A DNA stretch of 64,000 bases from Natrarchaeobaculum aegyptiacum (lineage in GTDB: Archaea > Halobacteriota > Halobacteria > Halobacteriales > Natrialbaceae): contig NZ_CP019893.1 in assembly GCF_002156705.1 (NCBI RefSeq), positions 3,410,001 to 3,474,000 on the forward strand, in the 5' to 3' direction. The notes under the pieces were generated by a model. That model saw nothing but the letters and a program-made list of their open reading frames with translations. It did not search any database and had not been told where the DNA came from. Of the stretch, positions 20,659 through 44,493 are shown piece by piece. A program made the translations under genes and the position numbers. Each line of letters opens with the position of its first letter. Position 1 is the stretch's first letter.

Positions 20659-21428
20659 AGGATCTCCACCTCCGACGCGAGGACCTCGACGATGGCTGGC
20701 GCTGCATCGACGCCCTCGCCCAGTATTTCTGCCGGCGAGTCGTCCGTTTCGGGCGCCTCGAGCCTGATCTTCTCGAAGGTTCCGGGTCCGGCTTCGCCGG
20801 TCGGCTCGCGACGGCTAACCTCCTTGCGACGCGCCTGCATCTTGGCGCGCATGGAGGCGTATCTGGGTTCGTTGATCCCCTCTTTGACCGTGACGACGGC
20901 CGGGAGGTCGACCTCGTAGACCTCTTCACCGCCGGAGATCTCTCGTTTCGCGACGGCCACCCCGTCATCGACATCGAGGGACCTGATACCGGTCACGCAG
21001 GGCAGGCCGAGCCGACGCGCGAGGCGGACGCCGACCTGGCAGTTGCCCATGTCGGCCGACTCGTTGCCGAACAACAGGAGATCGAACGCACCGAATTCAT
21101 CCTCGAGATCGTCGATGACGTCGGCGATCGCGTTCGCAGTCGCTCGCGGCCCCCACTCCTCACCGCCGGACTCGAGCAGCGTCGCCTCGTCGGCCTGCAT
21201 GGCGAGTCCGGTCCGAAGCTGTTCGGTTGCCTCCTCGGGGCCGAGCGTGAGGACGTGTGCCGAGCCACCGTGGTCCTCGGCCAGCTGGACAGCCTCTTCG
21301 ATGGCACACTCCTCGTGTGGGCTCATCGTAAATCCGAGGTTACTCGTGTCGATTCGCTGGTTGTCCTCGGTCAGGACGATCTTTGCACCGGTGTTCGGGA
21401 CGCGCTTGACACAGGAGAGTACGTTCAT
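20655..21428 (-). CDS. etfB: Electron transfer flavoprotein, beta subunit
   Basis: This 257-residue ETF-beta has the N-terminal CVKRVPNTGAKI and SPHEECAIEEAVQLAE motifs, the GNESADMGNCQVG loop and a C-terminal TVKEGINEPRYASMRAKMQA region. That last region corresponds to the recognition loop that docks to partner dehydrogenases. It starts two bases after the stop of the upstream FAD-dependent dehydrogenase gene and overlaps etfA by 4 bases, so all three are one operon. No FixA/bifurcating extra features stand out. Confidence 0.96.
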   Translation of the reverse strand: MNVLSCVKRVPNTGAKIVLTEDNQRIDTSNLGFTMSPHEECAIEEAVQLAEDHGGSAHVLTLGPEEATEQLRTGLAMQADEATLLESGGEEWGPRATANAIADVIDDLEDEFGAFDLLLFGNESADMGNCQVGVRLARRLGLPCVTGIRSLDVDDGVAVAKREISGGEEVYEVDLPAVVTVKEGINEPRYASMRAKMQARRKEVSRREPTGEAGPGTFEKIRLEAPETDDSPAEILGEGVDAAPAIVEVLASEVEIL

Positions 21429-24273: not shown

Positions 24274-26706
24274 CTACTCTGTCGTCCGTTCGGCCGTCGC
24301 GATCGCTGCCGCGTTCGGGGCGACGTCGTGGACGCGGACGACGTCGACGCCCCGTTCTGTGGCAAGCGCCGTTGCGGCCACGGTCGGCGCGAGTCGGTCG
24401 TTTCGTGCCACGCCATCGACCATCGACTTCTGGGAGTGGCCGACCACCAGTCCCGTGCCGAGCGCACGGAACTCCTCGAGTCGATCGAGCAACGCGAAGC
24501 TCTCGGTGGCTGTCTTCCCGAAGCCGAGACCGGGATCGACAAGGAGATTCGAGCGATCGATGCCCGCACGTTCGGCCAGCAGAACGCGTTCGGTGAGGTC
24601 CGCGAGGACGTCGTCGACGACGTCGTCGTAGTCGTACCGGCAGTCGGGATCGACCGGCGCGGAGAGGCTGTGCATGAGCACTGCCGGCACGCCGTGGTCG
24701 GCGACGACGCGGCGCATCGCCTCGTCGCTCAGGCCGGTGACGTCGTTTACCATGTCCGCACCCACCTCGAGGGTGGCCTCGGCCACCGATGGTTTCCGGG
24801 TGTCGATCGAGACCGTCGCCTCGAGAGTGTCGAGGTGCTCGACGACCGGCAGGACGCGCTCCCGTTCGACGTCGGCGGGAACCGGCTCGGCACCCGGTCT
24901 GGTGGATTCGCCGCCGACGTCGACGATGTCCGCACCTGCTGCCACCATCTGCTCGGCGCGGACGAGGGCGTCTTCGATCGCCTCGTACTCACCGCCGTCG
25001 TGGAAACTGTCGGGCGTGACGTTCAGAATGCCCATCACGGCCGTCCCGTCGCCCCACTGGTAGTCCGGTGGGTCGTCGGCCCCGATCCCGAGGGCGGTGG
25101 TCACCTGCTGGGCGAGCTGGCGACCACCGATCGACCGGCCGCGCAGTTTCGCGGTTAGCTCCTTGAAATGGGCAAGCGTTCCGCCGAGGACGACCGCCAC
25201 GTGCTGGTCTGACGCCTCGATACCCGAGACCGCACAGGTGCCGCCCAGTGACTCCATCAGTGTCCGGAGTTCGCGACCTTCCTTCTGACGGACGTGAAAC
25301 CGGAACGTCCGGTGTGGAAGTCGATCGACCCGATCCCGACAGGCCGACGACGGGACGTCGGCCCGATCCAGGGCCGCTCGAGCGCGTTCGACCGTGGGCG
25401 TCCGGACCGGCTGGAGCGTCCGCGTCCACCGGTCGCGGGCTTCAGCGACCACGGCGAGCGACCCCGTCACGAGTACGCAATCGGACGGGTCTGCGGCCCG
25501 GAGGGCCCGGTCGAGCGCGACGAGGACGGACTCGTACTCGCCGGCGTCGACACTCTCGATCTCGCGCTCGGCGACCACCCCGAGCACGTCCGTCGCCTGG
25601 CCTCGTTCGACGTCCGGCGTGGCGAGATAGAGCCGGTCGGGATCGGGCAGTGCACGCACCATTCCCCGGTGGTCTTTCTCCCGTAACGCGCCGAAAACGA
25701 GGGAGAGGTCGTCGTATTCGAACCGCTCTACGACCGTCGCGAGCGTCTCACAGGCCTCCGGGTTGTGTGCGCCGTCGATGACGGTCAGTGGCTCGTCGTC
25801 CATCACTTCGAATCGGCCCGGCCAGTGGACGTTCCGGATTCCCGCCGCGATTTCGTCTTCACCGGGATCGGCGATCTGTCTCGCGAGCGTGGCGGCAATA
25901 CCGGCGTTGATCGCCTGATGAGGACCGAGCAACGGCGTCCGACACTCGACGTTCCAGTCCGGACCGACCAGCGAGAGAGCAGACGATGTCGTCGAAACCA
26001 TTCCGTTCTCCGTCGCGTGGACGTCCGGCGGCGGACCGTCGACAGTCTCGTCGTCCTCGTCGCCGACCGTGAGCACGTCGGTTTCCGCCTCGAGCGTCTC
26101 GAGTGCCGTCCCGCTGGCCCCGGTCACCAGCGGCGCGTCGGTCGGTGCAACCTGTGCCTTGTCGCGGGCGATCTCCTCGATCGTCGACCCGAGGATGTCG
26201 GTGTGCTCGAGACTGACACTCGTGACGGCTGCTGCAGCGGGATCGACCACGCTGGTGGCGTCGTAGCGACCGCCGATACCGACCTCGAGGACGGCGACGT
26301 CGACGTCCTCACGGGCGAAGTGCCACAGCGCCATGACGGTACAGACCTCGAAGAACGTCGGAGCCTCCCCGTCGGCGGTTCGGTCGACGACCGACGGCCA
26401 GATCGTCTCGACGAATCGGACGACCTCTCGTTTCGGGATCTTGCGTCCGTCGACTCTCACGCGCTCTCGTCGGTCGTTCAGGTCAGGAGAGGTGTAACAG
26501 CCGACCCTGTAGCCCGTCTCGCGGAGAATGCGCTCGAGTAGTCGGGCTGTGCTCCCTTTCCCGTTCGAGCCGGCGATCTGGACGGCCGGCAGGTCCTCGT
26601 GGGGGTTACCGAGGGACGAAAGCATCGCTCCGGTCGTCTTCGTCTCCATCTCGGGACGGAGTCGCCGAAGCCGTTCCATCTTGTTTATCGCCTCGTGATA
26701 CTCCAT
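24274..26706 (-). CDS. folCP: Fused dihydrofolate synthase / dihydropteroate synthase (FolC-FolP)
   Basis: This 810-residue fusion makes the folate core. The N-terminal part (about 1-420) is FolC/FPGS-like, with the P-loop IAGSNGKGSTARLLE, FEVCTVMALWHF, GIGGRYDATSVVDP and VIDGAHNPEA. The C-terminal part (about 540-810) is FolP: VMGILNVTPDSFHDGG, DIVDVGGESTRPGAEP, VSIDTRKPSVAEA and NLLVDPGLGFGKT. A linker with an Arg-rich segment joins them. Such fusions are known in haloarchaea (Haloferax FolCP), which unlike most archaea use folate. I prefer the ATG at 26706 (MEYHEAINKMERL); another start five codons earlier (26721) is possible. It is divergent from fhs, 209 bases away. Confidence 0.93.
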   Translation of the reverse strand: MEYHEAINKMERLRRLRPEMETKTTGAMLSSLGNPHEDLPAVQIAGSNGKGSTARLLERILRETGYRVGCYTSPDLNDRRERVRVDGRKIPKREVVRFVETIWPSVVDRTADGEAPTFFEVCTVMALWHFAREDVDVAVLEVGIGGRYDATSVVDPAAAAVTSVSLEHTDILGSTIEEIARDKAQVAPTDAPLVTGASGTALETLEAETDVLTVGDEDDETVDGPPPDVHATENGMVSTTSSALSLVGPDWNVECRTPLLGPHQAINAGIAATLARQIADPGEDEIAAGIRNVHWPGRFEVMDDEPLTVIDGAHNPEACETLATVVERFEYDDLSLVFGALREKDHRGMVRALPDPDRLYLATPDVERGQATDVLGVVAEREIESVDAGEYESVLVALDRALRAADPSDCVLVTGSLAVVAEARDRWTRTLQPVRTPTVERARAALDRADVPSSACRDRVDRLPHRTFRFHVRQKEGRELRTLMESLGGTCAVSGIEASDQHVAVVLGGTLAHFKELTAKLRGRSIGGRQLAQQVTTALGIGADDPPDYQWGDGTAVMGILNVTPDSFHDGGEYEAIEDALVRAEQMVAAGADIVDVGGESTRPGAEPVPADVERERVLPVVEHLDTLEATVSIDTRKPSVAEATLEVGADMVNDVTGLSDEAMRRVVADHGVPAVLMHSLSAPVDPDCRYDYDDVVDDVLADLTERVLLAERAGIDRSNLLVDPGLGFGKTATESFALLDRLEEFRALGTGLVVGHSQKSMVDGVARNDRLAPTVAATALATERGVDVVRVHDVAPNAAAIATAERTTE

Positions 26707-26914
26707 GACAGAACGGTTCACACGCCAGCCAATAAAGCTCGTGACAGGTGGTACCGATCCACAAGTCGTAGGGAGCGTTACAGGTCTTGTCGAGAGGTGA
26801 CGAATAGGGTCACGGCCCGGGCAACACGCACCGCGCTACCACGACAAACTCGTCGTATCCGGAAACCTATGGGTGGCTTCAACACTTATGTCGGGACCGA
26901 AGAAAGGCTTCCAC

Positions 26915-28630
26915 ATGAGCTCAGACGAGGGCGAGCAGTCGATACCGTCAGACTACGAGATCGCACAGTCCGTAACCACCAGCCACATCACCGACGTCGT
27001 CGAGCCGTACGGTCTCGAGCAAGAGGACCTCCAGTTGATGGGCGAACGGAAAGCGAAAGTCGAACTCGAGGCGATCGAACGGCTCCGCGAGGAACGTGAT
27101 GCAGACGGGAAAACCATCCTCGTGACCGGGATGACGCCGACGCCGCTGGGCGAGGGGAAGACGGTGACGACGGTCGGCCTCGGACAGGCGCTGAACCAGC
27201 TCGAGAAGGATGCACTGGTCGCGATCCGAGAGCCGTCGCTCGGCCCTGTCTTCGGCGTCAAGGGTGGGGCAGCCGGTGGCGGCCACTCGCAGGTGCTCCC
27301 GATGGAGGACATCAACCTCCACTTCACCGGCGATCTCCACGCACTGACCTCGGCGCACAACCTCATCGCGACGATGCTGGACAACCACATCAAACAGGGC
27401 AACGGCCTCGACATCGCGGTCAACTGGGTCAACTGGCCGCGTGCGATCGACATGAACGATCGCGTTCTCCGCGAGACCGTCGTCGGACTTGGCGGCGACG
27501 TGACCGGCGTTCCCCGCGAGGACGGGTTCATCCTGACGGCGGCCTCCGAACTGATGGCCGTCCTCTGTCTCGCCGATGGGATCGAGGACCTCAAGGAACG
27601 CATCGCACGGATCATCGTCGCCTACGACGAGGACGGCGATCCGATCACCGTCGACGACATCGGCGCGACCGACGCCGCCGCGATCCTCCTGAAAGACGCC
27701 CTGAAACCGAACGTCGTCCAGACGATCGAGGGGACGCCGGCGTTCGTCCACGGCGGCCCGTTCGCGAACATCGCCCACGGCACCAACTCCCTGATCGCTG
27801 ACGAGGTCGCCTCACATCTCTCGGAGTATCTCGTCACCGAGGCTGGCTTCGGCTCGGACCTTGGGGCCGAGAAGTTCATGGACATCGTCTCCCGGTTCGG
27901 TGACGTCGAACCCGATGCCGTCGCCATCGTCGCTTCCGTCCGCGCGCTGAAATACCACGGCAAAGAGATGTGGCCGCCCGACGTCGACGCCCTCGAGGAC
28001 GAAGACGTCGACGCGGTCTACGACGGATTCGAGAACCTCGAAAAACACGTCAGGAACCTCCAGCAGTTCGGCGTTCCGGTCGTCGTCGCCATCAACCGGT
28101 TCCCACAGGACACCGACGCAGAGATCGAGGCCGTCATCGAGCAGTGCGCGGACGAACTCGACGTGCCAGCTGCGGAGTCGACGGTCTTCGCCGACGGCGG
28201 CGAAGGGGGTCTCGAACTCGCCGAACACCTCGTCGAGGCCGCCGAGGCCGAGTCGGCGTTCGAACCGCTGTACGACCTCGACGTCTCGATCGAGGAGAAG
28301 ATCGAGACCGTCGCGACCGAGATCTACGGTGCCGACGGCGTCGAGTTCCACAGCGACGCCAAAGACGACATCGAACGACTCACCAATCTCGGCTTCGACG
28401 ACGTCCCGATCTGTATCTCCAAGACATTCCACTCCCTGAGCGACGAAGCCAGCCGCAAGGGGGTCCCCGAGGACTGGACGCTCGAGGTAAACGAGATTTA
28501 CCCCTCCGCAGGGGCCGGGTTCCTCGTGGTGTTGACCGCAGACGTCCTCACGCTGCCCGGGCTGCCGTCGGAGCCGGCCGCCGCCGACATGGAACTGCAC
28601 GCCGACAGCAGCATCTCCGGACTGTTCTAG
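26915..28630 (+). CDS. fhs: Formate-tetrahydrofolate ligase
   Basis: This ligase reversibly joins formate, THF and ATP to 10-formyl-THF. The 571-residue protein has the extended P-loop TPTPLGEGKTVTTVGLGQAL. It also has the family motifs REPSLGPVFGVKGGAAGGG, DIAVNWVNWPRAIDMNDR and TSAHNLIATMLDNH. The C-terminus reads YPSAGAGFLVVLTADVLTLPGLP. The ATG at 26915 (MSSDEGEQSIPSDYEIA) fits family N-termini; the frame is also open from 26873. Fhs is mainly bacterial, and its presence in haloarchaea reflects folate use and probable transfer. With FolD and formate dehydrogenase nearby it can run backwards, releasing formate and making ATP from methyl-derived C1 units. Confidence 0.96.
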   Translation: MSSDEGEQSIPSDYEIAQSVTTSHITDVVEPYGLEQEDLQLMGERKAKVELEAIERLREERDADGKTILVTGMTPTPLGEGKTVTTVGLGQALNQLEKDALVAIREPSLGPVFGVKGGAAGGGHSQVLPMEDINLHFTGDLHALTSAHNLIATMLDNHIKQGNGLDIAVNWVNWPRAIDMNDRVLRETVVGLGGDVTGVPREDGFILTAASELMAVLCLADGIEDLKERIARIIVAYDEDGDPITVDDIGATDAAAILLKDALKPNVVQTIEGTPAFVHGGPFANIAHGTNSLIADEVASHLSEYLVTEAGFGSDLGAEKFMDIVSRFGDVEPDAVAIVASVRALKYHGKEMWPPDVDALEDEDVDAVYDGFENLEKHVRNLQQFGVPVVVAINRFPQDTDAEIEAVIEQCADELDVPAAESTVFADGGEGGLELAEHLVEAAEAESAFEPLYDLDVSIEEKIETVATEIYGADGVEFHSDAKDDIERLTNLGFDDVPICISKTFHSLSDEASRKGVPEDWTLEVNEIYPSAGAGFLVVLTADVLTLPGLPSEPAAADMELHADSSISGLF

Positions 28631-28966: not shown

Positions 28967-31105
28967 ATGTCGACGGATGAGACCGACGAGCCGGTGAAAA
29001 CGATCTGTCCATACTGTGGCGTCGGCTGTGGCATCCAGATCCAGCAGGGCGAAGAGCCGGGCGACGTCCAGTTCGTGCCGTGGGGCGACGCACCGGTAAA
29101 CGAGGGGCGGATCTGTATCAAAGGTGGCGCAGCGACGGAGGTCGTTGCCCACGAAGATCGGCTCACCGACCCACTCATCAGGGAAGACGGCGAGTTCCGC
29201 GAAGCTACCTGGGAGGAAGCCTCCGACCTGGTCGTGAGCGAACTCGAGCGCATTCGCGAGGAGTACGGTCCCGACGCGGTGGGGTTTTTCGGCTCCTCGA
29301 AGACGATGAACGAGGAAAACTACCTGCTTCAGAAGCTCGCCCGCCGCTACGGGACGAATAACGTCGACAACTGCACGCGAATGTGCCACGCCTCGACGGT
29401 CTGGGCGCTCCGGACGAGCCTCGGCGCGGGGGCGATGACAAACAGCATGGCCGACCTTGAAGCGGAGTGTGACCTGTTCTGGATTCAGGGGGCGAACCCG
29501 GGCGAACAGCACCCGATCGCCAACAGCCAGTACTTCCGGCAGGCTGTCCTCGACGGTGCGACGGTGATCCAGGTCGATCCCCACGCCAACAAGACGACTC
29601 GGTCATTCCAGATCGACGAGACGGACCGCCACCAGCACCTCCAGTTGAACCCCGGGACAGACATTCCGTTGCTGAATATCGTCCTCAAGACGATCCTCGA
29701 GCACCACGAGGAGCACCCGGATGACGGCTGGATCGACGAGGAGTTCGTCGAAGAGCGAACCGAGGGGTTCGAGGACCTCGTCGAGACGCTCGTGGACTTC
29801 GACAAGAAGTCCGCCGCCGAGGAGTGTGGCATCCCGCTCGAGGACATCGAGCGAGCCGCCGAAGCGTACGCGACGGCCGACAACGCCGCCATCTTCACCG
29901 GTATGGGGATGAGCCAGCACGCCTGCGGCGTCGACAACGTGCAAAACGAGATCAACCTCGCGCTGATCACGGGCAACCTCGGCCGACCCGGAACCGGCGT
30001 CAACCCCCTGCGTGGCCAGAACAACGTTCAGGGGACCTGTGACGTCGGTGCGATGCCGAACGTTTTGCCCGGCTACCAGCTGGTCGACGACGACGAGGCC
30101 CGCGAATCGGTCGAGGAAGTCTGGGGGTTCGAGGTACCCGACGAGCCGGGGCTCACCAACGTCGAGTGCTCCCACGAGTTCGGGAAGTCGGTCAGGGGAC
30201 TGTACGTGATGGGCGAAAACCCCGTAATGAGCGAGCCCGACGCCAACCGGGTCGAAGAGCGAATTCAGAACCTCGAGTTCGTCGTCGTTCAGGACATCTT
30301 CCCGACCGAGACGGTCGAGTACGCCGACGTCGTCCTGCCAGCGACGACCTGGGCCGAACGCGGCGGCACCGTCACCAACACCGACCGGCGTGTCCAGCGA
30401 ATGCGCGGCGTCGAAAACGTCCACGAGAACACGAAACACGACCTCGAGATCCTCTCAGAGGTCGGGACGCGGCTGTTCGACGACGGCGACGAGCTGTTCG
30501 ACTTCGACGACCCCGAGGACGTGTTCGAAGAACTCCGGGAGGTCTGTCCGATCTACCACGGGATGACCTACGACGCACTCGACGAGGAGGGACTGCACTG
30601 GCCGTGTTACGAGCCCGGCGACGAGGGCGACCCCTTCCTCTACGAGGAGGCGTTCGACACCGAGAACGGGCTGGGACAGATCGAGGGGGTCACCCACCAG
30701 CCTCCCGAAGAGACGCCAGACGACGAGTACCCGCTGATCCTCACGACAGCCCGTCTCGAGGAACACTACAATACAGGGACGATGAGTCGCCGATCACCGA
30801 CGCTGAACCGACAGACCCCGGAGAACTTCGTCGACGTCCACCCGACCGACGCCGACCGGTACGGCATCGAGGATGGTCAGGACGTCGTCCTCACGTCCCG
30901 GCGTGGCGAGATCACGGTGGAAGCGCAGGTTACCGACGATACCAGGGAAGGCGTGGTCTGGACGACGCCCCACTTCGCGGCCGCCTCCGCAAATCGGCTG
31001 ACGAACGACGTCCTCGACGAGCGAGCGAAGATTCCCGAGTACAAGGCTGCGGCCGCGGAGATCGAAGTCGGGATCGAGCCAGCAGCGTCGTCTGCCGACG
31101 ACTGA
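28967..31105 (+). CDS. Formate dehydrogenase, catalytic alpha subunit (Mo/W-bis-MGD, cysteine type)
   Basis: This 712-residue DMSO-reductase-superfamily enzyme should oxidise formate to CO2. Near the N-terminus is a [4Fe-4S] site, CPYCGVGCGIQ with a fourth cysteine in GRICIKGG. The active-site stretch VDNCTRMCHASTVW places Cys where FdhF of E. coli has selenocysteine (VDCCARVUHGPS), so it is the Cys form. MGENPVMSEPD, VLPATTWAERGGTVTNTDRR and the C-terminal MGD-binding MSRRSPTLN motif follow. A ggtgatc Shine-Dalgarno-like stretch precedes the ATG at 28967. No beta or NADH-linked subunit is adjacent, so the electron acceptor is unclear. Nitrate-reductase-like relatives exist, but the fhs context favours formate. 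Confidence 0.88.
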   Translation: MSTDETDEPVKTICPYCGVGCGIQIQQGEEPGDVQFVPWGDAPVNEGRICIKGGAATEVVAHEDRLTDPLIREDGEFREATWEEASDLVVSELERIREEYGPDAVGFFGSSKTMNEENYLLQKLARRYGTNNVDNCTRMCHASTVWALRTSLGAGAMTNSMADLEAECDLFWIQGANPGEQHPIANSQYFRQAVLDGATVIQVDPHANKTTRSFQIDETDRHQHLQLNPGTDIPLLNIVLKTILEHHEEHPDDGWIDEEFVEERTEGFEDLVETLVDFDKKSAAEECGIPLEDIERAAEAYATADNAAIFTGMGMSQHACGVDNVQNEINLALITGNLGRPGTGVNPLRGQNNVQGTCDVGAMPNVLPGYQLVDDDEARESVEEVWGFEVPDEPGLTNVECSHEFGKSVRGLYVMGENPVMSEPDANRVEERIQNLEFVVVQDIFPTETVEYADVVLPATTWAERGGTVTNTDRRVQRMRGVENVHENTKHDLEILSEVGTRLFDDGDELFDFDDPEDVFEELREVCPIYHGMTYDALDEEGLHWPCYEPGDEGDPFLYEEAFDTENGLGQIEGVTHQPPEETPDDEYPLILTTARLEEHYNTGTMSRRSPTLNRQTPENFVDVHPTDADRYGIEDGQDVVLTSRRGEITVEAQVTDDTREGVVWTTPHFAAASANRLTNDVLDERAKIPEYKAAAAEIEVGIEPAASSADD

Positions 31106-31676: not shown

Positions 31677-33560
31677 TTACGGCTCGTCGTTCCTGCGGTC
31701 CCCGTCGTCACCGGGGTCTCCGGTGTCACCGCCGACGGTCGTTCGAAGAGCGGTGACGACCGGAAAGCGGTCACGGTCGCGTCTAAGAAGCGTTCCGACG
31801 AGGCCGACGAGCGCGAGGCAGACGAGCACCGCGAACGGGCCGCCGGTCAGGACGGCCATCGCCTGCAGGATTTCGGCGCTCCCGGTGACGAGCACCGAGA
31901 CGGCGACGAGCCCCTGGAAGAGTCCCCAGAAGACGATCGCACCGGTCGTCGGGGCGAACTCGCGTTTCGTCGCCAGCACGGCCACGACGAGCGTGGACGT
32001 ATCGGCCGAGGTCGTCATGAAGACGACGATCAAGGCCATGAAGACGAACATGAGGAGGTGGCTTATCGCGACCGTCTCGAACACCGGGAAACCGGCGACG
32101 GCTTCGGAGCCGCCGTGGGCCCCGATCGCTGCGAGGACGTCCACGACGCTGGTCTGCTGGAGGTGAACGGCGGTCGATCCAAGCAGGAGAAACCAGACCA
32201 TCGTCGCCAGCGACGTCGCGACGAACCCCGTCAGGACGACCGTCCTGATCCGCCGCCCGCGAGAGAGTGCCGCCAGGAAGAGGCCGGCGAACGGAGCCCA
32301 CGAAAGCCACCACGCCCAGTTCCAGATCGTCCAGTCGGCAACCCAGCCGTCGGCAACCCAGCCGTCGCCCAGATAGAGACTCATCGGGACCAGATTCGCG
32401 ACGTAGCCACCGACCGCGCTCGAGCTGCTCTCGAGGACGGCGGCTCGTGGGCTGACGGCGAAAAACAGCGCCGCGAACAGGCCGAACAGGACGACGTTGA
32501 CGGCTGCGATTCGTCTGATCCCCCGGTGGACGCCGCTCTGGGCCGAGACGACGAAAATAATCGTCAGGCCGGCGACGAACAGGACCGATCCCGGGGTCGT
32601 GAACGCCACGTCCCACTGGAAGTCGATTCCGGTGAGGAACTGCTCGCTAACGAGTGCGATGGAGGTCGCGATCCCGCCGATCGTCGCGAAGACGGCGAGC
32701 AGATCGACGACCCGACACCACGCCGAGTCGAGGTTATCGACCCCGAGAAACGGTGTCAGGATCGCCGAAACCCGCAACGGGGCACCGCGCTGGTAGACGT
32801 AGTACGCGATCGGGACGCCGAGGGCGATGTAGACGCTCCAGGCGGTAAACCCCCAGTGAAACAGCGCGTAGGTGAGCGCCGCCCCGGCAGCACCCTCCGA
32901 CGCCGGATCGACGTCGAAGTACGGCGGTGGTGTCTCGTAGTGAAACAGTGCCTCTGCGGGTCCCCAGAAGACGATGCCGGCGGCGATACCGGCTGTAAAG
33001 ACCATCGTGAAGTAGACGGGATAGGTGTAGGCTGGTTCGGCGTCCGCGCCACCGAGCTTGATCGATCCCCACGGCCCAAGCAGCAAGAACAGGCAGAACA
33101 GCACGGCAATCGACATCACGCCGGCAAACACCAGGCCGCCGTACGTGGTAACGGCTATCTGGGCGGCATCGATCGTCGAAATCGTCTCCGACGGCGCCAG
33201 CACCTGCCCGAGGAAAAACAGAACGAACGCGGCGACCGGAATCCCAAACGTGATCGGATCCTGGCGAGCGAGAAACGCTCTGGCGGTATCCGTCAGTTCG
33301 ACCCGGCGGACACGTAGCAGGTATTCCGGCTCGACCGTGCCCGCCGTCTCGTCGATGTCTGTCGGCAACACCGCGAGATAGGTCAACCCGGAGGCGAAAA
33401 AGGTGAGCGAAATACCGAGCCACGCCCGACCGGAAACCGCGTCGCCGACGATTTCGGGGAAGAAAAAGCCAGACACGACGACGGTTCCCGAGAGGATACA
33501 GAGCGGAGCCAGCAGCTTCCGAAGGAAGCGTTCGGCGGCACTGACGCCCTGAGTTCCCAT
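31677..33560 (-). CDS. BCCT family transporter with atypical glycine motif
   Basis: The 627-residue protein has about twelve transmembrane helices of the betaine/carnitine/choline transporter family. The TM8 aromatic motif is clear (NWAWWLSWAPFAGLFLAALS). However, the unwound TM3 segment that reads GMGIG in BetP reads GIAAG here (TAGIAAGIVFWGPAEALFHY), and the usual AEP is AEA. That suggests a different substrate or ion coupling from the second BCCT gene in the window. A TATA-like aactaattta lies about 25 bases before the ATG. It sits between ridA and a K+ channel gene on the same strand. Osmolyte or methylated-amine uptake is the likely role. Confidence 0.9.
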   Translation of the reverse strand: MGTQGVSAAERFLRKLLAPLCILSGTVVVSGFFFPEIVGDAVSGRAWLGISLTFFASGLTYLAVLPTDIDETAGTVEPEYLLRVRRVELTDTARAFLARQDPITFGIPVAAFVLFFLGQVLAPSETISTIDAAQIAVTTYGGLVFAGVMSIAVLFCLFLLLGPWGSIKLGGADAEPAYTYPVYFTMVFTAGIAAGIVFWGPAEALFHYETPPPYFDVDPASEGAAGAALTYALFHWGFTAWSVYIALGVPIAYYVYQRGAPLRVSAILTPFLGVDNLDSAWCRVVDLLAVFATIGGIATSIALVSEQFLTGIDFQWDVAFTTPGSVLFVAGLTIIFVVSAQSGVHRGIRRIAAVNVVLFGLFAALFFAVSPRAAVLESSSSAVGGYVANLVPMSLYLGDGWVADGWVADWTIWNWAWWLSWAPFAGLFLAALSRGRRIRTVVLTGFVATSLATMVWFLLLGSTAVHLQQTSVVDVLAAIGAHGGSEAVAGFPVFETVAISHLLMFVFMALIVVFMTTSADTSTLVVAVLATKREFAPTTGAIVFWGLFQGLVAVSVLVTGSAEILQAMAVLTGGPFAVLVCLALVGLVGTLLRRDRDRFPVVTALRTTVGGDTGDPGDDGDRRNDEP

Positions 33561-36854: not shown

Positions 36855-38654
36855 TCAGTCGCTCACGTCGACGTCGGTAACCCTGTCGTCTGTCGATCGC
36901 ACCTCCGTCACGAGTTCGCGGCTCTCCGTCGTGACGACGACCTCGTCGCTTCCCTCCAGATCTTCGATCAGTTCGTTGAACTCGTCGGACTCGAGGATCT
37001 CGTACTCTCGCTGAAGCCCCTGCATCACGGCGTAGATCATGAACAGCAAGATCACCGCGAACGGGAGGCCGCTGGCGATTGCGGCGGCCTGCAGTGCCTC
37101 GACGGCCGCGTCACCCCCGGCAACTAGCAGTGCGGCGGCGACGAGTCCCTCGGAGGCCGCCCAGAAGACCCGACCGCTCACCGGCGTCTCGTGTTTTCCG
37201 CCGGTGCTCAGGTGCTCGAGGACGAGCGAGCCCGAGTCAGAGGAGGTCACGAAGAACGTCGTGACGAGGACGATCGCGATCGCCGACAGGATCACTGTTC
37301 CCGGCATGAGGTCGAACATCGCGAACATCGCGAGTTCTTCGCCGACCTCGAACATCGGACCGCTGATCGCGCCCTCCGTCGCCCCGTTCAGTTCGAAGTT
37401 CAGGGCGGTGGCGCCCATCGCAGCGAACCAGGCGAACGAGAACAGGACGGGGATCAGGAGCACGCCGCCGACGAACTCCCGGATCGTCCGCCCCTTGGAG
37501 ATACGGGCGATGAACATCCCGACGAACGGCGACCAGGAGATCCACCAGGCCCAGTAGAACACCGTCCAGTCGACGAGGAACGCGCCTTCCCCTTCACCAC
37601 CGGGCCCGTAGAACTCCGAACCCTGGAAGTAGTGGGAGTCGAACGTGTTTCCGAAGAACGAGAGTTCGAAGAAGTTGCCGACGTAGGCGCCGATTCCCTG
37701 TGGGAGCGCACCGAGGATGAACAGCGTCGGGCCGAGTATGAACACCGACGCCAGAAGCAGCATCATCAGCGTGAGGTTCAGGTTGCTGAGCCGTCGGATG
37801 CCCTTGTCGAGGCCGAGGTAAACCGAGATGATCGCCAGGCCCGTGACGACCGCGATGATCCCGACGGCCACCCAGGTCGAGTCCGGTACGGCGGGGAAAG
37901 CACCGACCTCGTCGCCGACGAACGTCAGGCCAGCGTTGATCTGTAACGCCCCGAGGCCGAGTGACGTCACGAGGCCGAACAGCGTCGCGAAAACGGTGAA
38001 GATGTCGATGACGTGTCCCGGCCAGCCGTAGATTCTGTCGCCCAGCACCGGGTAGAAGACCGAGCGGAACGTCAGTGGCAGCCCGCGGTTGTACGAGAAG
38101 AACGCGAGCCCGAGCGCGACCAGCGCGTAGATCGCCCACGGGTGAAAGCCCCAGTGGAACAGCGACACCGCCAACGCAACCTCTCCGGCACCTTCGGTCC
38201 CCGCTTCGGCCCCCAGGTGCGGGTCGAAGAGGTGGTAGACCGGTTCGGCGACGCCGAAGAACATGAGACCGATTCCCATCCCGGCACTGAACAACATCGC
38301 GATCCAGGAGATATCGCTGAACTCTTTCTCCCCGTCGACGCCACCGATCCGGATCGCACCGTACTTGCTGATGGCGAGATAGATCATGAAAATGATGAAG
38401 ATATTCGCCGCCAGGATGAACAACCAGTCGAAGTAGTCCGATACTCCGACTCGGACGTCCTGATAGAGCTCACCCGCCTGATCCGGAAACGCGAGCGAGA
38501 GGATAATAAACAGGACGATCAGCCCCCCTGCGATGAGGAATACGGGTGGATTGATGTCGAACCCGAATCCCTGCCAGTTGTTGTCGCCCGGTTCTCGATC
38601 GGTCTCCGCGTGAAACAGTTCTTCCTGTATTCCGCGCTTGTCTTTATCTGTCAT
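36855..38654 (-). CDS. BCCT family betaine-type transporter
   Basis: This 599-residue, twelve-helix transporter has the canonical BetP-like TM3 glycine stretch (SAGMGIGLMFFGVAEP) and the TM8 tryptophan motif FYWAWWISWSPFVGMFIARI. Both are associated with Na+-coupled glycine-betaine transport. The C-terminal tail after the last helix (about 60 residues, ESDEFNELIEDLEGSDE) is acidic rather than basic as in BetP, so its osmosensing mode may differ. The nearest convincing TATA element is about 200 bases upstream of the ATG, which implies a long leader. It is convergent with the second uspA. Confidence 0.94.
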   Translation of the reverse strand: MTDKDKRGIQEELFHAETDREPGDNNWQGFGFDINPPVFLIAGGLIVLFIILSLAFPDQAGELYQDVRVGVSDYFDWLFILAANIFIIFMIYLAISKYGAIRIGGVDGEKEFSDISWIAMLFSAGMGIGLMFFGVAEPVYHLFDPHLGAEAGTEGAGEVALAVSLFHWGFHPWAIYALVALGLAFFSYNRGLPLTFRSVFYPVLGDRIYGWPGHVIDIFTVFATLFGLVTSLGLGALQINAGLTFVGDEVGAFPAVPDSTWVAVGIIAVVTGLAIISVYLGLDKGIRRLSNLNLTLMMLLLASVFILGPTLFILGALPQGIGAYVGNFFELSFFGNTFDSHYFQGSEFYGPGGEGEGAFLVDWTVFYWAWWISWSPFVGMFIARISKGRTIREFVGGVLLIPVLFSFAWFAAMGATALNFELNGATEGAISGPMFEVGEELAMFAMFDLMPGTVILSAIAIVLVTTFFVTSSDSGSLVLEHLSTGGKHETPVSGRVFWAASEGLVAAALLVAGGDAAVEALQAAAIASGLPFAVILLFMIYAVMQGLQREYEILESDEFNELIEDLEGSDEVVVTTESRELVTEVRSTDDRVTDVDVSD

Positions 38655-39526: not shown

Positions 39527-40759
39527 TCAGTTCACGACAGTGGCGTCGTAGCCCCCGCTCTCGATCGCGTCGACGATCTGGGCCGCGTGTTCCGCCCCAC
39601 TCGTTTCGACCTGAAAGATGAGATATGCATCGCCGACGTCGAGTTCTTCCAGGGCACGGTCGTGGCGGACGGTCTGGATATTGGCACCGTATTCGGCGAT
39701 GATCCCGGAGATGTCCGCCATCTTTCCGGGCCGGTCGTCGATACGGACGCGCACTCGCAGGATCTGCTTGCGCTGGGCCAGTGCGTGGACGAGTATCGTC
39801 CGGAGCATCGTCATGTCGAGATTGCCACCACACAGAAGCGCCACGACGCGTTCACCGTCGACCTCGAGTGCGTCGCTTCGCATCGCTGCGACCGCGGCTG
39901 CACCGGCTCCTTCGACGAGCTGTTTCGACCGTTCGAGCAACACGAGAACGGCCCGGGCGATCTCGTCGTTGGTTACCGTCACGATCTCGTCGACGTGATG
40001 ATCCATGATCGAGAGCGTTAGCTCGGAGATGCCGCCGGTCGCGATACCGTCGGCGATGGTGTCGACCGACTCGAGCGTCTGGGGGGCTCCCTTGTCGAGA
40101 CTGTCCAGTACCGTTTCGGCACCCGCTGCCTGGACGCCGACGACCCGGGTCTCCGGGCTCCGATCGGCGAACGCGGTCGCGATTCCCGAAATGAGGCCAC
40201 CGCCCCCGATCGGAACGACGACGGTGTCGACCTCGGGGACGTCCTCGCACATCTCGAGACCCAGGGTACCCTGGCCGGCGACGATCGCCGGGTCGTCGAA
40301 GGCGTGGACGAACTCGACGCCGGGTTCACCGACCAGGTCACGTGCGTATTCGGTGGCTTCCTGAAAGTCGTGCCCGACGAGTTCGACCGTCCCACCGTAG
40401 CCACGCGTGGCGTCGATCTTCGTCTGTGGAGCCGTCTTTGGCATGACGATCGTCGACTCGACGCCGAGGGTCGTCGCCGCGAGGGCGACACCCTGGGCGT
40501 GGTTACCCGCGCTCGCCGCGACGACCCGGTCGAGGTCGCGCGCCTCGAGACAGCGATCGATCTTGTTGTACGCGCCGCGGGTCTTGAACGATCCCGTCCA
40601 CTGGAGGTGCTCGCACTTGAGCACGACGCGGTCCGCACCGGTCATTGCCTCGAGCGACGTACTCCGATCGAACGGCGTCCGTTTGACGACGCCACACTCC
40701 TCGACCCGGTCCCGTGCAGCCTCGATGTCGTCGATCGTCACGGGAGGATCCTGTGTCAT
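39527..40759 (-). CDS. Serine/threonine ammonia-lyase with C-terminal ACT domain
   Basis: The 410-residue PLP enzyme deaminates threonine to 2-oxobutyrate and often serine to pyruvate. It has the PLP-lysine motif TGSFKTRGAYNK, SAGNHAQGVALAA, the glycine loop VPIGGGGLISG and a C-terminal ACT domain (about 330-405, LRVRVRIDDRPGKMADISG). The single ACT domain fits short, allosteric TdcB/IlvA types. The start at the ATG at 40759 is fixed by a perfect GGAGGTGA (40767-40774) seven bases upstream. It is 94 bases downstream of folD on the same strand, which links amino-acid deamination to C1 metabolism. RidA at 31197 would clear its enamine by-product. Confidence 0.92.
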   Translation of the reverse strand: MTQDPPVTIDDIEAARDRVEECGVVKRTPFDRSTSLEAMTGADRVVLKCEHLQWTGSFKTRGAYNKIDRCLEARDLDRVVAASAGNHAQGVALAATTLGVESTIVMPKTAPQTKIDATRGYGGTVELVGHDFQEATEYARDLVGEPGVEFVHAFDDPAIVAGQGTLGLEMCEDVPEVDTVVVPIGGGGLISGIATAFADRSPETRVVGVQAAGAETVLDSLDKGAPQTLESVDTIADGIATGGISELTLSIMDHHVDEIVTVTNDEIARAVLVLLERSKQLVEGAGAAAVAAMRSDALEVDGERVVALLCGGNLDMTMLRTILVHALAQRKQILRVRVRIDDRPGKMADISGIIAEYGANIQTVRHDRALEELDVGDAYLIFQVETSGAEHAAQIVDAIESGGYDATVVN

Positions 40760-40766
40760 CGCAGGG

Positions 40767-40774
40767 TCACCTCC
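40767..40774 (-). promoter_or_regulatory. Strong Shine-Dalgarno site deciding the ammonia-lyase start
   Basis: The minus-strand sequence ggaggtga is a full complement of the 16S rRNA tail and sits seven bases before the ATG at 40759. It rules out the GTG at 40795 as start. Such strong sites are uncommon upstream of first genes in this window and suggest a leadered transcript, possibly read through from folD. Confidence 0.75.
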
Positions 40775-40853
40775 GGCCGATCCCGGAACGCCCACCGTCG
40801 CGTGTGTGTCGAAACAGAACTTATCAGTTGTGTTAAATTAATTGGCAACATTG

Positions 40854-41747
40854 TCAGGGAAGGTCGACCGGAACGCCCGTCTGGATGCTCGCGGCTGCGA
40901 CCGTATTGTACAGCAACATCGCGATGGTCATCGGGCCGACGCCACCGGGAACGGGCGTGATAACGCTCGCCTTCTCGCGTGCGCTGTCGAACTCGACGTC
41001 ACCGACCAGTTCGTACCCCTTCTCAGTCTCTGCATCAATTCGGTTGACGCCGACGTCGATCACGACCGCGCCCGCACCGATCATCGAGCCGTCGACGAGT
41101 TCGGGGACGCCGGCCGCGGCGACGACGATATCGGCCTGTCGGGTCTTCTCGGCGAGCGCATTCGTTCGCGAGTGACAGACCGTCACCGTCGCGTTCCCGC
41201 CGGGCGCTTTCTGTATCAGCAGGTTCGCTATCGGCTTGCCGACGATCTCCGAGCGTCCGACGATCACCACGTCCGAACCATCGGTGTCGACGTCTGCAGC
41301 CTCCAGTAGTTTCTGGATGCCGTGGGGCGTACAGGGTTTGTACCGCGGGTCGCCCGCGACGAGCCGACCGACGTTCTCGGGATGGAACCCGTCGACGTCC
41401 TTGAGCGGGTCGACGTGTCGGAGGGCGTTCGTTCCATCGACGTGGTCCGGCACCGGCATCTGGAGGAGGATGCCGTGGACTGTTGGATCCCCGTCGAGCT
41501 CGATGACGGTCTCGAGCAGGTCGTCAGCGGACGCCTCGGGCTCGAGTTTGCGGTGGATCCCCTCGATGCCGAGTTCGTCACAGGCTCTCTGTTTCATCGA
41601 GACGTAGGTCTCGCTGGCCGGATCGTCGCTCATCAACACCGTGGCCAGCCCCGGTGTCACGCCTTCGTCCTCGAGAGCTGTCACACAGTTCTGGACGTCA
41701 TCTCGTATCCGGTCGGCTACCGCGTTGCCGTCGATGACGTGGGTCAC
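40854..41747 (-). CDS. folD: Methylene-THF dehydrogenase / methenyl-THF cyclohydrolase
   Basis: FolD interconverts 5,10-methylene-THF and 10-formyl-THF. The 297-residue protein has the catalytic lysine motif YVSMKQRACDELGI, the ILLQMPVPDHVD segment, KPCTPHGIQKLLE, the nucleotide-binding GRSEIVGKPIANLL and the closing TPVPGGVGPMTIAMLL. I take the GTG at 41747 (M-THVIDGNAVADRIRDD), which gives the family's length. A GTG four codons earlier is also possible; the frame continues upstream without conserved content. It is divergent from the GcvT-like gene and probably co-transcribed with the ammonia-lyase. Confidence 0.95.
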   Translation of the reverse strand: MTHVIDGNAVADRIRDDVQNCVTALEDEGVTPGLATVLMSDDPASETYVSMKQRACDELGIEGIHRKLEPEASADDLLETVIELDGDPTVHGILLQMPVPDHVDGTNALRHVDPLKDVDGFHPENVGRLVAGDPRYKPCTPHGIQKLLEAADVDTDGSDVVIVGRSEIVGKPIANLLIQKAPGGNATVTVCHSRTNALAEKTRQADIVVAAAGVPELVDGSMIGAGAVVIDVGVNRIDAETEKGYELVGDVEFDSAREKASVITPVPGGVGPMTIAMLLYNTVAAASIQTGVPVDLP

Positions 41748-42095
41748 GGCAATACACACCTGTTGCGTTCGTCGTTTCGGATCATTCTCTATCACTATTT
41801 CGTCGCCCGGTCGCCGTGGCAGTCGTCGCCACTGCCGGGTGACGTCAGAATGAGTCTGTGGAGTGTTATCAACCCACGGTCTCCCGGCCTGTCCCGAGGA
41901 ATTCCGGCCCGGATTCCACAAAATATCTGGTAACTGCCACGTATAGCTCGAGCTCATCTCTCGAGTCGCGCCCCCGAGTACTGTCGCGAGAACGGCTCTC
42001 GAACCCGGCTAGAGGGTCTCTACCCGCAGTTTCCACGAAGGTCGGTTTCCGACCGACTCCCACTTTTATGTAGATCCCCGTTCATCTGAGTGGTA
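41748..42095. promoter_or_regulatory. Divergent intergenic region between folD and the GcvT-like gene
   Basis: These 348 bases hold no supported gene. Toward the plus strand a TATA-like cttttatg (42063-42070) lies about 27 bases before the ATG at 42096, giving a leaderless mRNA. The folD side has no equally clear box. The divergent arrangement would allow one regulator to control both C1 genes, but I see no obvious operator. Confidence 0.5.
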
Positions 42096-43463
42096 ATGTC
42101 TGGTAACGAACCACCACAGACGGAGGAGCATCCAAACTATCCGAGCGTCGACCAGTCTGACCGAACGCTCCCACGGAACCTGCGCCAGTCCGGTGATCCG
42201 GGTATCGAAATGCTCGTTTCGACCCGCATTCGTAAGTCACCGTTTTTCCACAAGTCGTTCGTGGAAAACGGAGCGTGGCGAGCGACGGTCTACAATCGGA
42301 TCTACCACCCTCGCGGGATGCTCGAACCCGAGGAGGGTGGGATGATGGAGGAGTACGACGCGCTGGTCAACCACGTCACGCTGTGGGACGTCGCGGTCGA
42401 ACGCCAGATCCGTGTCAAAGGCCCCGACGCCGAGGCGCTGACGAACTACGTCATCACCCGCGACGCGACCGAGATCGAACCGATGCACGGGAAGTACGTC
42501 ATCCTCTGTAACGAGGATGGTGGTATCCTCAACGATCCCGTCCTGTTGCGACCGGGCGAAGACGAGTTCTGGTTCTCGATCTCGGACTCGACGCTGATGC
42601 AGTGGCTACAGGGCGTCAACGTCGGGAAGAACTTCGACGTCGAGATCGACGAGATCGACGTCGCACCGGTCCAGATCCAGGGCCCGAAGTCGATCGACGT
42701 CATGATCGACCTCGTCGGCGAGGAGGTCGACGAGATCCCCTACTACGGGCTGATGGAAGCCGAGATCGACGGCGTCCCCGTCCTCGTCAGCCAGACCGGG
42801 TTCTCCGGCGAGAAAGGGTTCGAGATCTACGTCCGCGAGGCGAGTAAAAACGCCGAACGCGTCTGGGACCCCGCGATCGAGTCCGTTCGCGACCACGGCG
42901 GGATGCAGGTCGCACCGGCACACCACCGCCGCATCGCCGCTGGCATCCTCTCGTGGGGCCAGGACATGGACCACGAGACCTCGCCGTTCCAGGTCAACCT
43001 CGGCTACCAGGTGCCCGACGACAAGACGTCCGACTACGTCGGCAAGGAGGAACTCGAGCGCCAGAAAGCACAGATCGACGAGGGCGAGTACCCGTTCGTC
43101 CACAAGATGGTCGGGCTCAAATTGGCGGGTGAGCCGATCCGGGATTACGCGCCGGACTTCTGGCTCATCTCCGACCCCGACACCGGCGAGGAGTGTGGTT
43201 ACGTCACCTCACCGTGGTACAACCCCGAACTCGAGACGAATCTCGCACTCGGGTTCGTGCCAGCCGAGAAACTCGACGGCGACCCGATGGACGTCTACGA
43301 CGGCGACATCGAAACGGAGTTCGAGGTCCACCTGCCCGACGAGTACGCCGAAGAGCCGGGCGAACCCGTCTACGCCAAGGTCTCGGAGGTGCCGTTCAAG
43401 CCGTCGGTCAACCCGAGCGCCCGCGAGCAGGCCAAGTTAAACGCCAGAGAGGACGCCGAGTAA
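42096..43463 (+). CDS. GcvT/DmdA-family THF-dependent demethylase
   Basis: The 455-residue protein is a stand-alone GcvT fold with an N-terminal extension. Motifs include VTLWDVAVERQIRVKGPDA, GGILNDPVLLRP, VAPVQIQGPKS, TGFSGEKGFEIYV and AGILSWGQDMDHETSPF. The VWDVxCERQ-like and GGMLNDP-like stretches recall DMSP demethylase DmdA and related THF methyltransferases rather than the glycine-cleavage T protein. No gcvH or gcvP is nearby. The next gene is a methylene-THF reductase homologue, which would be needed to oxidise the 5-methyl-THF that a DmdA-type reaction produces. The methyl donor (DMSP, glycine betaine or another) cannot be read from sequence. GTG at 42090 is a less likely start. Confidence 0.8.
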   Translation: MSGNEPPQTEEHPNYPSVDQSDRTLPRNLRQSGDPGIEMLVSTRIRKSPFFHKSFVENGAWRATVYNRIYHPRGMLEPEEGGMMEEYDALVNHVTLWDVAVERQIRVKGPDAEALTNYVITRDATEIEPMHGKYVILCNEDGGILNDPVLLRPGEDEFWFSISDSTLMQWLQGVNVGKNFDVEIDEIDVAPVQIQGPKSIDVMIDLVGEEVDEIPYYGLMEAEIDGVPVLVSQTGFSGEKGFEIYVREASKNAERVWDPAIESVRDHGGMQVAPAHHRRIAAGILSWGQDMDHETSPFQVNLGYQVPDDKTSDYVGKEELERQKAQIDEGEYPFVHKMVGLKLAGEPIRDYAPDFWLISDPDTGEECGYVTSPWYNPELETNLALGFVPAEKLDGDPMDVYDGDIETEFEVHLPDEYAEEPGEPVYAKVSEVPFKPSVNPSAREQAKLNAREDAE

Positions 43464-43612
43464 CCGTGTTCGGGGACACAGGGAGCGGCCGCACCGGTCG
43501 ACGGGCGGACCGATACACACGTAGGGATCGAGCACGAACTCGAATCAGACCGATGACCGACCGAGATCGGCCTCGATCCTCGATGTGTGCCCCTGCTCTC
43601 GGCCGTTCGTAC

Positions 43613-43619
43613 GGAGGTG
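43613..43619 (+). promoter_or_regulatory. Shine-Dalgarno site of the methylene-THF reductase gene
   Basis: The sequence ggaggtg lies seven bases before the ATG at 43627 and fixes that start against the longer frame beginning at 43585. It implies translation from a leadered message, consistent with read-through from the demethylase gene 163 bases upstream. Confidence 0.7.
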
Positions 43620-43626
43620 CCCGATA

Positions 43627-44493
43627 ATGTCGTCCGAAATCGAGACGACCCCGACCGCAGAGGGACTTCTCGAACTGCTCGAGGAGCCACGCTTCGAGCT
43701 AATGCCGTTCGAGAGCATGGACGAGCAACTCGAACACCTCCCCGAGGGCGCGGAGGTCGCTATCACGACCTCGCCGACGCTCGGACTCGAGTCGACGATC
43801 GAGTGGACCGAACGCGCCACCGATCGCGGGTTCGAGGTCGTTCCTCACGTCGCAGCACGCTACGTCCGTGACGTAGATCACCTGAAAGACGTCGCGGCAC
43901 GGCTCACCGACGCCGGAGTCTCCGACATCTTCGTTCCCGGCGGCGACCGCGAGGAGCCAGCCGGCGAGTTCACGTCGGCCTACGACCTGCTGTCGACGCT
44001 CGAGGACCTCGATTACGAGTTCGAGGACGTCGGCATCACCGGCTATCCGGAGGGTCACGACTTTCTCGACGACGACGTGCTGGCCGAGGCGATGGCGAAG
44101 AAAGAGCCCTACGCCACCTATATCGTGACTCAGCTGTGTTACGACCCCGAGGCGATCATCGACTGGACCGACGAGATCCGCGCTCGTGACGTCGACCTGC
44201 CGGTCGAAGTCGGCATCCCCGGCGTCATGAAGTACCAGCGGTTGCTGCAGATCTCGCGGAAGGTCGGCGTCGGCGACTCGATCCGGTTCCTCCAGAAGAC
44301 CAGTGGCGTCCTCGGGTTCCTTCGAGAACTGGTCGGCTCACGTGGAACCTACGTCCCCGACGAACTGGTCGAGGGACTCGCACCATACGCGACCGATCCA
44401 CACTACAACATTCGCGGAGTGCACGTCTACGCGTTCAACCAGGTTCCGGACCTCGAGTCGTGGCGTTCGGAGACGCTGACCCAACACCGGTAA
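43627..44493 (+). CDS. Methylenetetrahydrofolate reductase family protein
   Basis: The 288-residue TIM-barrel protein is of the MetF family, which interconverts 5-methyl-THF and 5,10-methylene-THF. Recognisable parts are PHVAARYVRD, LTDAGVSDIFVPGGDREEP, DVGITGYPEGHDFL and YIVTQLCYDPEAII, then a C-terminal YNIRGVHVYAFNQV that matches the end of MetF barrels. It lies after the GcvT/DmdA-like gene on the same strand. That pairing suggests methyl groups enter as 5-methyl-THF and are oxidised here. In the opposite direction it would serve methionine synthesis. A ggaggtg Shine-Dalgarno fixes the start. Confidence 0.85.
   Translation: MSSEIETTPTAEGLLELLEEPRFELMPFESMDEQLEHLPEGAEVAITTSPTLGLESTIEWTERATDRGFEVVPHVAARYVRDVDHLKDVAARLTDAGVSDIFVPGGDREEPAGEFTSAYDLLSTLEDLDYEFEDVGITGYPEGHDFLDDDVLAEAMAKKEPYATYIVTQLCYDPEAIIDWTDEIRARDVDLPVEVGIPGVMKYQRLLQISRKVGVGDSIRFLQKTSGVLGFLRELVGSRGTYVPDELVEGLAPYATDPHYNIRGVHVYAFNQVPDLESWRSETLTQHR

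Follow-up and report, generated by a model that had tools for sequence, protein, structure and literature searches.

The first step of glycine betaine breakdown is known to be carried out by GbcAB, by BHMT or by cobalamin-dependent Mtg systems. GbcAB and CntA are Rieske monooxygenases, which depend on O2 and release formaldehyde, and MtgB/MtgC/MtgA(D), requiring cobalamin and a PF06253 protein and having a dedicated MetF2, converts betaine and THF to dimethylglycine and 5-methyl-THF (PMC12478193). Redox-neutral methyl transfer to THF, with 5-methyl-THF as the product, is also the reaction of DmdA (3tfh, Pelagibacter ubique), while the THF-dependent demethylases LigM/DesA of Sphingobium SYK-6 use aryl O-methyl donors and are coupled to an oxidative-type MetF. 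A distinct MTHFR subfamily, for instance that of Sphingobium SYK-6, is described in a 2026 review (PMC13001107, citing Yu et al. 2025) as favouring CH3-THF oxidation and as coupled to THF-dependent demethylases. For a DmdA-like protein of SAR11, which adjoins metF and has an unknown substrate (SAR11_1265/SAR11_1264), a second DMSP methyl-removal step was speculated (Sun et al. 2011, PMC3160333). In SAR11, the initial step of using betaine is without experimental validation (PMC12478193). Haloarchaeal dimethylglycine-oxidase and BCCT genes have been noticed and the use of betaine raised, with no first demethylase (Anderson et al. 2011, PMC3102087); Haloquadratum walsbyi carries genes for a dimethylglycine oxidase and a BCCT carrier, yet betaine was reported not to enhance its growth (PMC3102087).

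The stretch of DNA analysed here (the window, 64,000 nucleotides, NZ_CP019893.1:3410001-3474000) belongs to the 3.93 Mb single-contig genome of the haloarchaeon Natrarchaeobaculum aegyptiacum. At position 42096 it carries a gene whose product shares with DmdA the GcvT fold, the N-terminal YN motif region, about 25–35% identity and, as we propose, the type of reaction. Unlike DmdA, it falls into a separate clade, has SGE.G for the SKQGG loop, and is encoded without dmdB/C/D neighbours, being linked to MetF and betaine genes. Coupling of THF-dependent demethylation to a MetF of oxidative type would be common to this locus and LigM/DesA, but those enzymes use other donors and match the model of the 42096 protein with a structural Z of 27, versus 43 for DmdA. 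The predicted net reaction is the same as that of the Mtg system; a genome search of N. aegyptiacum found no MTTB (PF06253), GbcA/CntA-type Rieske or BHMT-family gene. GbcAB and CntA are not homologous to the 42096 protein, although a relative of theirs takes the same place as this protein, both among the neighbouring genes and in the distribution over genomes.

The gene pair and its neighbourhood

Table 1. Features of the DmdA-like/MetF locus and its surroundings in the window
Feature	Position	Strand	Evidence
DmdA-like stand-alone GcvT-fold protein, 455 aa	42096..43463	+	Pfam GCV_T 143 bits; NCBIfam; tree; AF2 model
Putative TATA-like box TTTTAT	42064..42069	+	27–32 nt upstream of ATG 42096; read from sequence
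MetF-like reductase, 288 aa	43627..44493	+	Pfam MTHFR 47.4 bits, cut-off 24; best PDB match 7xg9
FolD, methylene-THF dehydrogenase/cyclohydrolase	40854..41747	-	NCBIfam NF010764 533 bits, above cut-off; divergent from 42096 gene
IlvA-type threonine/serine ammonia-lyase	39527..40795	-	TIGR01127 446 bits, above cut-off
BCCT betaine/carnitine/choline transporter	36855..38654	-	Pfam BCCT 592 bits; TIGR00842 above cut-off
Second BCCT-family transporter	31677..33560	-	NF047988 (betaine BCCT) 353 bits, below cut-off
Formate dehydrogenase alpha subunit	28967..31105	+	TIGR01591 733 bits, cut-off 666
Formate-tetrahydrofolate ligase (Fhs)	26915..28630	+	NF010030 800 bits, cut-off 652
FolC-FolP fusion, folate synthesis	24274..26721	-	TIGR01499 307 and TIGR01496 277 bits, both above cut-off
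Dimethylglycine oxidase/dehydrogenase-like FAD + GcvT fusion, 843 aa	21431..23962	-	full-length PDB match
ETF alpha and beta subunits	19681..21428	-	alpha: ETF-family matches, all below cut-off; beta: sequence and position

A reading of this DNA from its sequence only had described the 42096 product as a stand-alone GcvT fold followed by a MetF-like gene, and both identifications agree with the Pfam matches (Table 1). The motifs VTLWDVAVERQ and GGILNDP are present in the protein, and its GCV_T_C domain scores slightly below the Pfam cut-off. GTG 42090 is a possible alternative to the ATG start at 42096, and the spacing of the TATA-like box would fit a leaderless haloarchaeal transcript. The two genes lie on the same strand with 163 nt between the stop of the one and ATG 43627 of the other, which follows GGAGGTG and is the likely start, favoured over 43585. 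The same reading had remarked on missing glycine-cleavage partners. This holds for the vicinity, where neither gcvH nor gcvP adjoins the 42096 gene, but not for the genome, which has gcvT and gcvH near 2.957 Mb and gcvPA and gcvPB near 3.607 Mb. The MetF-like gene is the sole MTHFR of N. aegyptiacum.

The FolD reading frame extends to 41957 but matches the family only from residue 72 onwards; the roughly 71 residues at its N-terminus are extra, and the true start is probably near 41747. The IlvA-type enzyme, whose gene was found at 22 of 72 homologous loci, may convert serine, formed from glycine and methylene-THF, to pyruvate. Against the betaine BCCT model NF047988 the transporter at 36855 reaches 492 bits, below the cut-off of 650. 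The 843-aa fusion, named by homology, matches N,N-dimethylglycine oxidase 1pj5 over its full length with 490 bits. No NCBIfam match at 1e-30 was obtained for ETF beta, and ETF is the likely electron acceptor of this enzyme.

Family placement of the 42096 protein

DmdA (NF009133) is the best NCBIfam model for the 42096 protein, but the score of 234 bits is 176 below the cut-off of 410; for comparison, the true DmdA of Phaeobacter scores 600 bits. GcvT models gave 131–155 bits (below the TIGR00528 cut-off of 235.85) and LigM/DesA models only 33–42 bits. Maximum-likelihood trees split GcvT, DMGDH, SoxA and Tdm (100/100) from a DmdA-like superclade that holds the 42096 protein. Haloarchaeal proteins of this superclade form two clades, A, including the window protein (99/95), and B (100/100), which are joined with 100/100 and nested with orthologs from Roseovarius, Salipiger, a Rhodospirillaceae MAG and SAR11 (100/99). 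Separate from this branch are the DmdA clade (100/99) and a clade of Lichenihabitans/Phaeobacter type; Halomonas relatives with 47% identity took no firm position. A joint clade of the 42096 protein with GcvT was rejected (AU test, p=1.8e-93), model scores and gene linkage being also against it, and a joint clade with DmdA alone was rejected less strongly (p=0.013), the score and the neighbours again speaking against it. Judged by its sequence, the 42096 protein is a member of the DmdA-like superfamily, on a branch distinct from both GcvT and DmdA. The phylogeny that had been proposed as a check has thus kept the label DmdA-like for the superclade and removed it for DmdA proper; grouping inside true GcvT, named earlier together with glycine-cleavage genes elsewhere as evidence against the proposal, is rejected, while those genes do exist.

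The AlphaFold2 model (pLDDT 82) matched DmdA 3tfh with Z 43.4 and Thermotoga GcvT 1wos with Z 43.2; these values are practically tied, so the fold cannot decide between DmdA and GcvT. The DmdA motif SG[WY]SKQGG is replaced by TGFSGEKG. Phenylalanine occupies the aromatic site (W197 in 3tfh; W171 in the numbering of PMC7487153); since genuine DmdAs of Roseobacter carry Y at this site, it is no clean discriminator. The earlier suggestion to compare a structural model with DmdA substrate residues therefore found an altered loop beside a fold and an aromatic site that do not separate the candidates. The non-DmdA group with AEM59334 in an earlier classification presumably includes haloarchaeal sequences. 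AEM59334 and others were assigned to it in a 2020 study of DmdA.

B-clade paralogs (loci L194–L201) have 65–72% identity to the window protein. Their neighbours are HTH_10 regulators or a thiolase/ChsH2 pair, with betaine or C1 genes at 0 of 8 loci, and they probably act on another substrate. At one locus (L184, genome G129) A- and B-type paralogs stand in tandem.

Bacterial orthologs were found by searching genomes with the window protein; a contig scan seeded from Lichenihabitans gave mainly the Lichenihabitans clade. The Pelagibacteraceae (SAR11) ortholog shares 58% identity with the window protein and probably belongs to the same family as SAR11_1265. Its gene overlaps metF, the two being preceded by OpuAC and permease genes, and on the other side are BHMT-like, dimethylglycine-dehydrogenase-like and Rieske genes. 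Where Sun et al. speculated on DMSP for SAR11_1265, the evidence collected here points to betaine. In Halomonas, the gene of the relative diverges from Fhs and a gene of dimethylglycine-oxidase type. Within 10 kb of the Roseovarius and Salipiger orthologs, neither MetF nor a dimethylglycine gene was seen.

Distribution and co-occurrence with MetF

DmdA-like orthologs were registered in 97 of 391 Halobacteria genomes (one per species, partly related) at E <1e-100 and 65–100% identity, with a clear gap below them, ordinary GcvT-fold proteins having about 30%. MetF was present in 102 genomes and absent from 289, as well as from the H. volcanii control. Both genes were found together in 96 genomes, the DmdA-like gene alone in 1, MetF alone in 6 and neither in 288 (Fisher p=6e-83). 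Since relatedness inflates this value, a within-genus test was added: across 18 polymorphic genera MetF accompanied the DmdA-like gene in 45 of 46 carriers, with 26 expected (p=1.8e-19). MetF lies within about 10 kb at 57 of 72 A-clade loci and within 500 bp at 33. The pairing is not due to chance. A search across the phylum (120 genomes) had six hits, every one from the order to which the window belongs. One ortholog match, on a plasmid of Haloarcula halophila (L042:15001-16389, plus strand), has an in-frame stop and may be a pseudogene.

Of the six genomes with MetF only, one carries MetF in divergent orientation to a LigM/DesA-like gene, and in two PurU adjoins MetF; the other three have no recognised MetF partner within 10 kb. 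Haloarchaeal MetF therefore tends to accompany THF-dependent demethylases or formate release. The LigM/DesA-like gene (L257:7700-9115, minus strand, haloarchaeon G221) has FolD and PurU near it, and its product scores 481 bits on the DesA model (cut-off 800) and 420 on LigM, both below cut-off. G221 has no DmdA-like gene, and the locus is a possible archaeal module for THF-dependent O-demethylation.

Kind and direction of MetF

The best PDB match of the window MetF is 7xg9 with 108 bits, the next reaching 46 bits, so that biosynthetic MetFs come far behind. We take 7xg9 to be the MTHFR of Sphingobium SYK-6. It is the best solved relative of the window, SAR11 and Lichenihabitans MetFs alike, each encoded beside a demethylase-like gene, and is 62–96 bits ahead of the next. 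A Mer-like reductase was found in all 80 haloarchaea tested; because of this and of the absence of MetF from 289 of 391 genomes, MetF is to be regarded as an addition, and a biosynthetic role for it is unlikely. The presence of FolD, Fhs, PurU or FDH nearby makes oxidation the natural direction to assume. We infer that MetF runs from 5-methyl-THF to 5,10-methylene-THF, a prediction that is well supported. Entry of methyl groups as 5-methyl-THF, as the sequence-only reading had it, is the best interpretation of the pair.

The methyl donor

The substrate profile compared 42 DmdA-like carriers with 38 non-carriers (80 haloarchaeal genomes). A dimethylglycine-oxidase-like enzyme is encoded by all 42 carriers and by only 3 of 38 non-carriers, which are exactly the non-carriers that have a GbcA/CntA-like Rieske oxygenase. 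The best NCBIfam model for these Rieske proteins is GbcA (132–142 bits, cut-off 670), and their best solved relative is carnitine monooxygenase. Their locus consists of BCCT, IlvA, dimethylglycine oxidase and Rieske genes, with no MetF in the stretch. From this matching context it follows that the Rieske gene stands in the slot that the DmdA-like gene and MetF otherwise occupy. A gene of betaine type (coding for a dimethylglycine enzyme, a BCCT carrier or a Rieske protein) lies within about 10 kb at 59 of the 72 A-clade loci, and a C1-oxidation gene at 61.

The Rieske gene is also present in 11 of the 42 carriers, and MTTB (PF06253) in 6 of the 80 haloarchaea, each of the six being a carrier (6 of 42); such genomes possibly have two first-step betaine enzymes, or the substrates differ. 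At a Halomicrococcus locus the MTTB-family gene (L037:3865-5319, plus strand) adjoins formate-THF ligase. Encoded between MetF and dimethylglycine enzymes at 21 of 72 loci is a recurring protein of 399 aa that matches no Pfam family (L036:20667-21866, minus strand).

Sulfonium compounds are better methyl donors than glycine betaine, and our literature search found no report of direct methyl transfer from betaine to THF. Glycine betaine is nevertheless the best single guess, with moderate support, DMSP is unlikely and poorly supported, and carnitine or other quaternary amines are less probable alternatives. The donor had earlier been said to be beyond what sequence can tell; the genes further around the pair, together with the phylogenetic profile, now point to glycine betaine and lend no support to DMSP.

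Proposed pathway and alternatives

We consider it fairly probable that the 42096 protein acts as a glycine betaine methyltransferase that depends on THF and supplies an oxidative MetF. The following scheme predicts what the enzymes do and on which substrate, the direction of flux, the gain of ATP and the order of steps. It is built on what was observed: the genes present and the families to which they belong, their co-occurrence and common context, and the Rieske gene of quaternary-amine type that replaces the pair elsewhere. BCCT carriers would bring in betaine, and the corrinoid-independent 42096 enzyme would transfer a methyl group of betaine directly to THF, giving dimethylglycine and 5-methyl-THF. 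MetF would oxidise the latter to 5,10-methylene-THF, which FolD would convert to 10-formyl-THF; formate-THF ligase may then release formate with a gain of ATP, and formate dehydrogenase would oxidise formate to CO2. Together with ETF, the FAD enzyme resembling dimethylglycine oxidase would strip the next methyl group(s) as methylene-THF, leaving glycine. Chances are about even that this is a new class, a direct, cobalamin-free glycine betaine:THF methyltransferase that replaces Rieske oxygenases, allows betaine methyls to be oxidised completely to CO2 via MetF in archaea, and occurs in roughly one in four haloarchaeal genomes as well as in marine Alphaproteobacteria and SAR11.

The same entry into THF from another donor (carnitine, proline betaine, choline or an N-methyl amino acid) is an unlikely reading, though not a negligible one. 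The superfamily is diverse, with distinct DmdA, Lichenihabitans-type and haloarchaeal clades, the replacing Rieske protein is equally close to carnitine monooxygenase and GbcA, carnitine and choline are further substrates of BCCT carriers, and the B-clade paralog has no betaine or C1 neighbours at all; the 42/42 link to the dimethylglycine-oxidase-like enzyme, however, fits betaine best. DmdA proper, that is, a DMSP demethylase, is suggested by the top NCBIfam model and by 3tfh as top fold match, and is made very improbable by the shortfall in score (234 vs 410 bits), the rejected joint clade and the changed loop motif; no dmdB/C/D-type genes, which flank true dmdA, are seen beside the 42096 gene in the window, and an AMP-binding gene is present at just 3 of 72 loci (one query).

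The pair might also be biosynthetic, MetF making 5-methyl-THF and the DmdA-like protein methylating, for example, dimethylglycine to betaine. MetF-fold enzymes are reversible in principle and betaine is a useful solute in halophiles, but linkage to FolD, Fhs, FDH, PurU and dimethylglycine-oxidase-like genes and the proximity of MetF to 7xg9 leave this reading only a slight chance. Least credible is a paralog of the glycine-cleavage T-protein or a folate-binding non-enzyme: the fold is the same and the structural Z is tied with GcvT, while the tree excludes a joint clade with GcvT, the genome has its own gcvT/H/P elsewhere, and the gene is linked to MetF rather than to gcvH/P.

Implications

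Assignment to betaine and the archaeal DmdA-like/MetF system appear to be new, the SAR11 pair having been published in 2011; our search, which was short on subscription journals, found no paper assigning the DmdA-like family to betaine in archaea. How haloarchaea would use glycine betaine, a main osmolyte of brines, is a question standing since Anderson et al. 2011, and if the proposed function is true, one assay would bear on both the haloarchaeal and the SAR11 betaine questions. The locus suggests a cobalamin-free and oxygenase-free betaine route in a salt-loving archaeon. Such a route would need neither O2 nor cobalamin and would give archaea an oxidative methyl pathway based on MetF.
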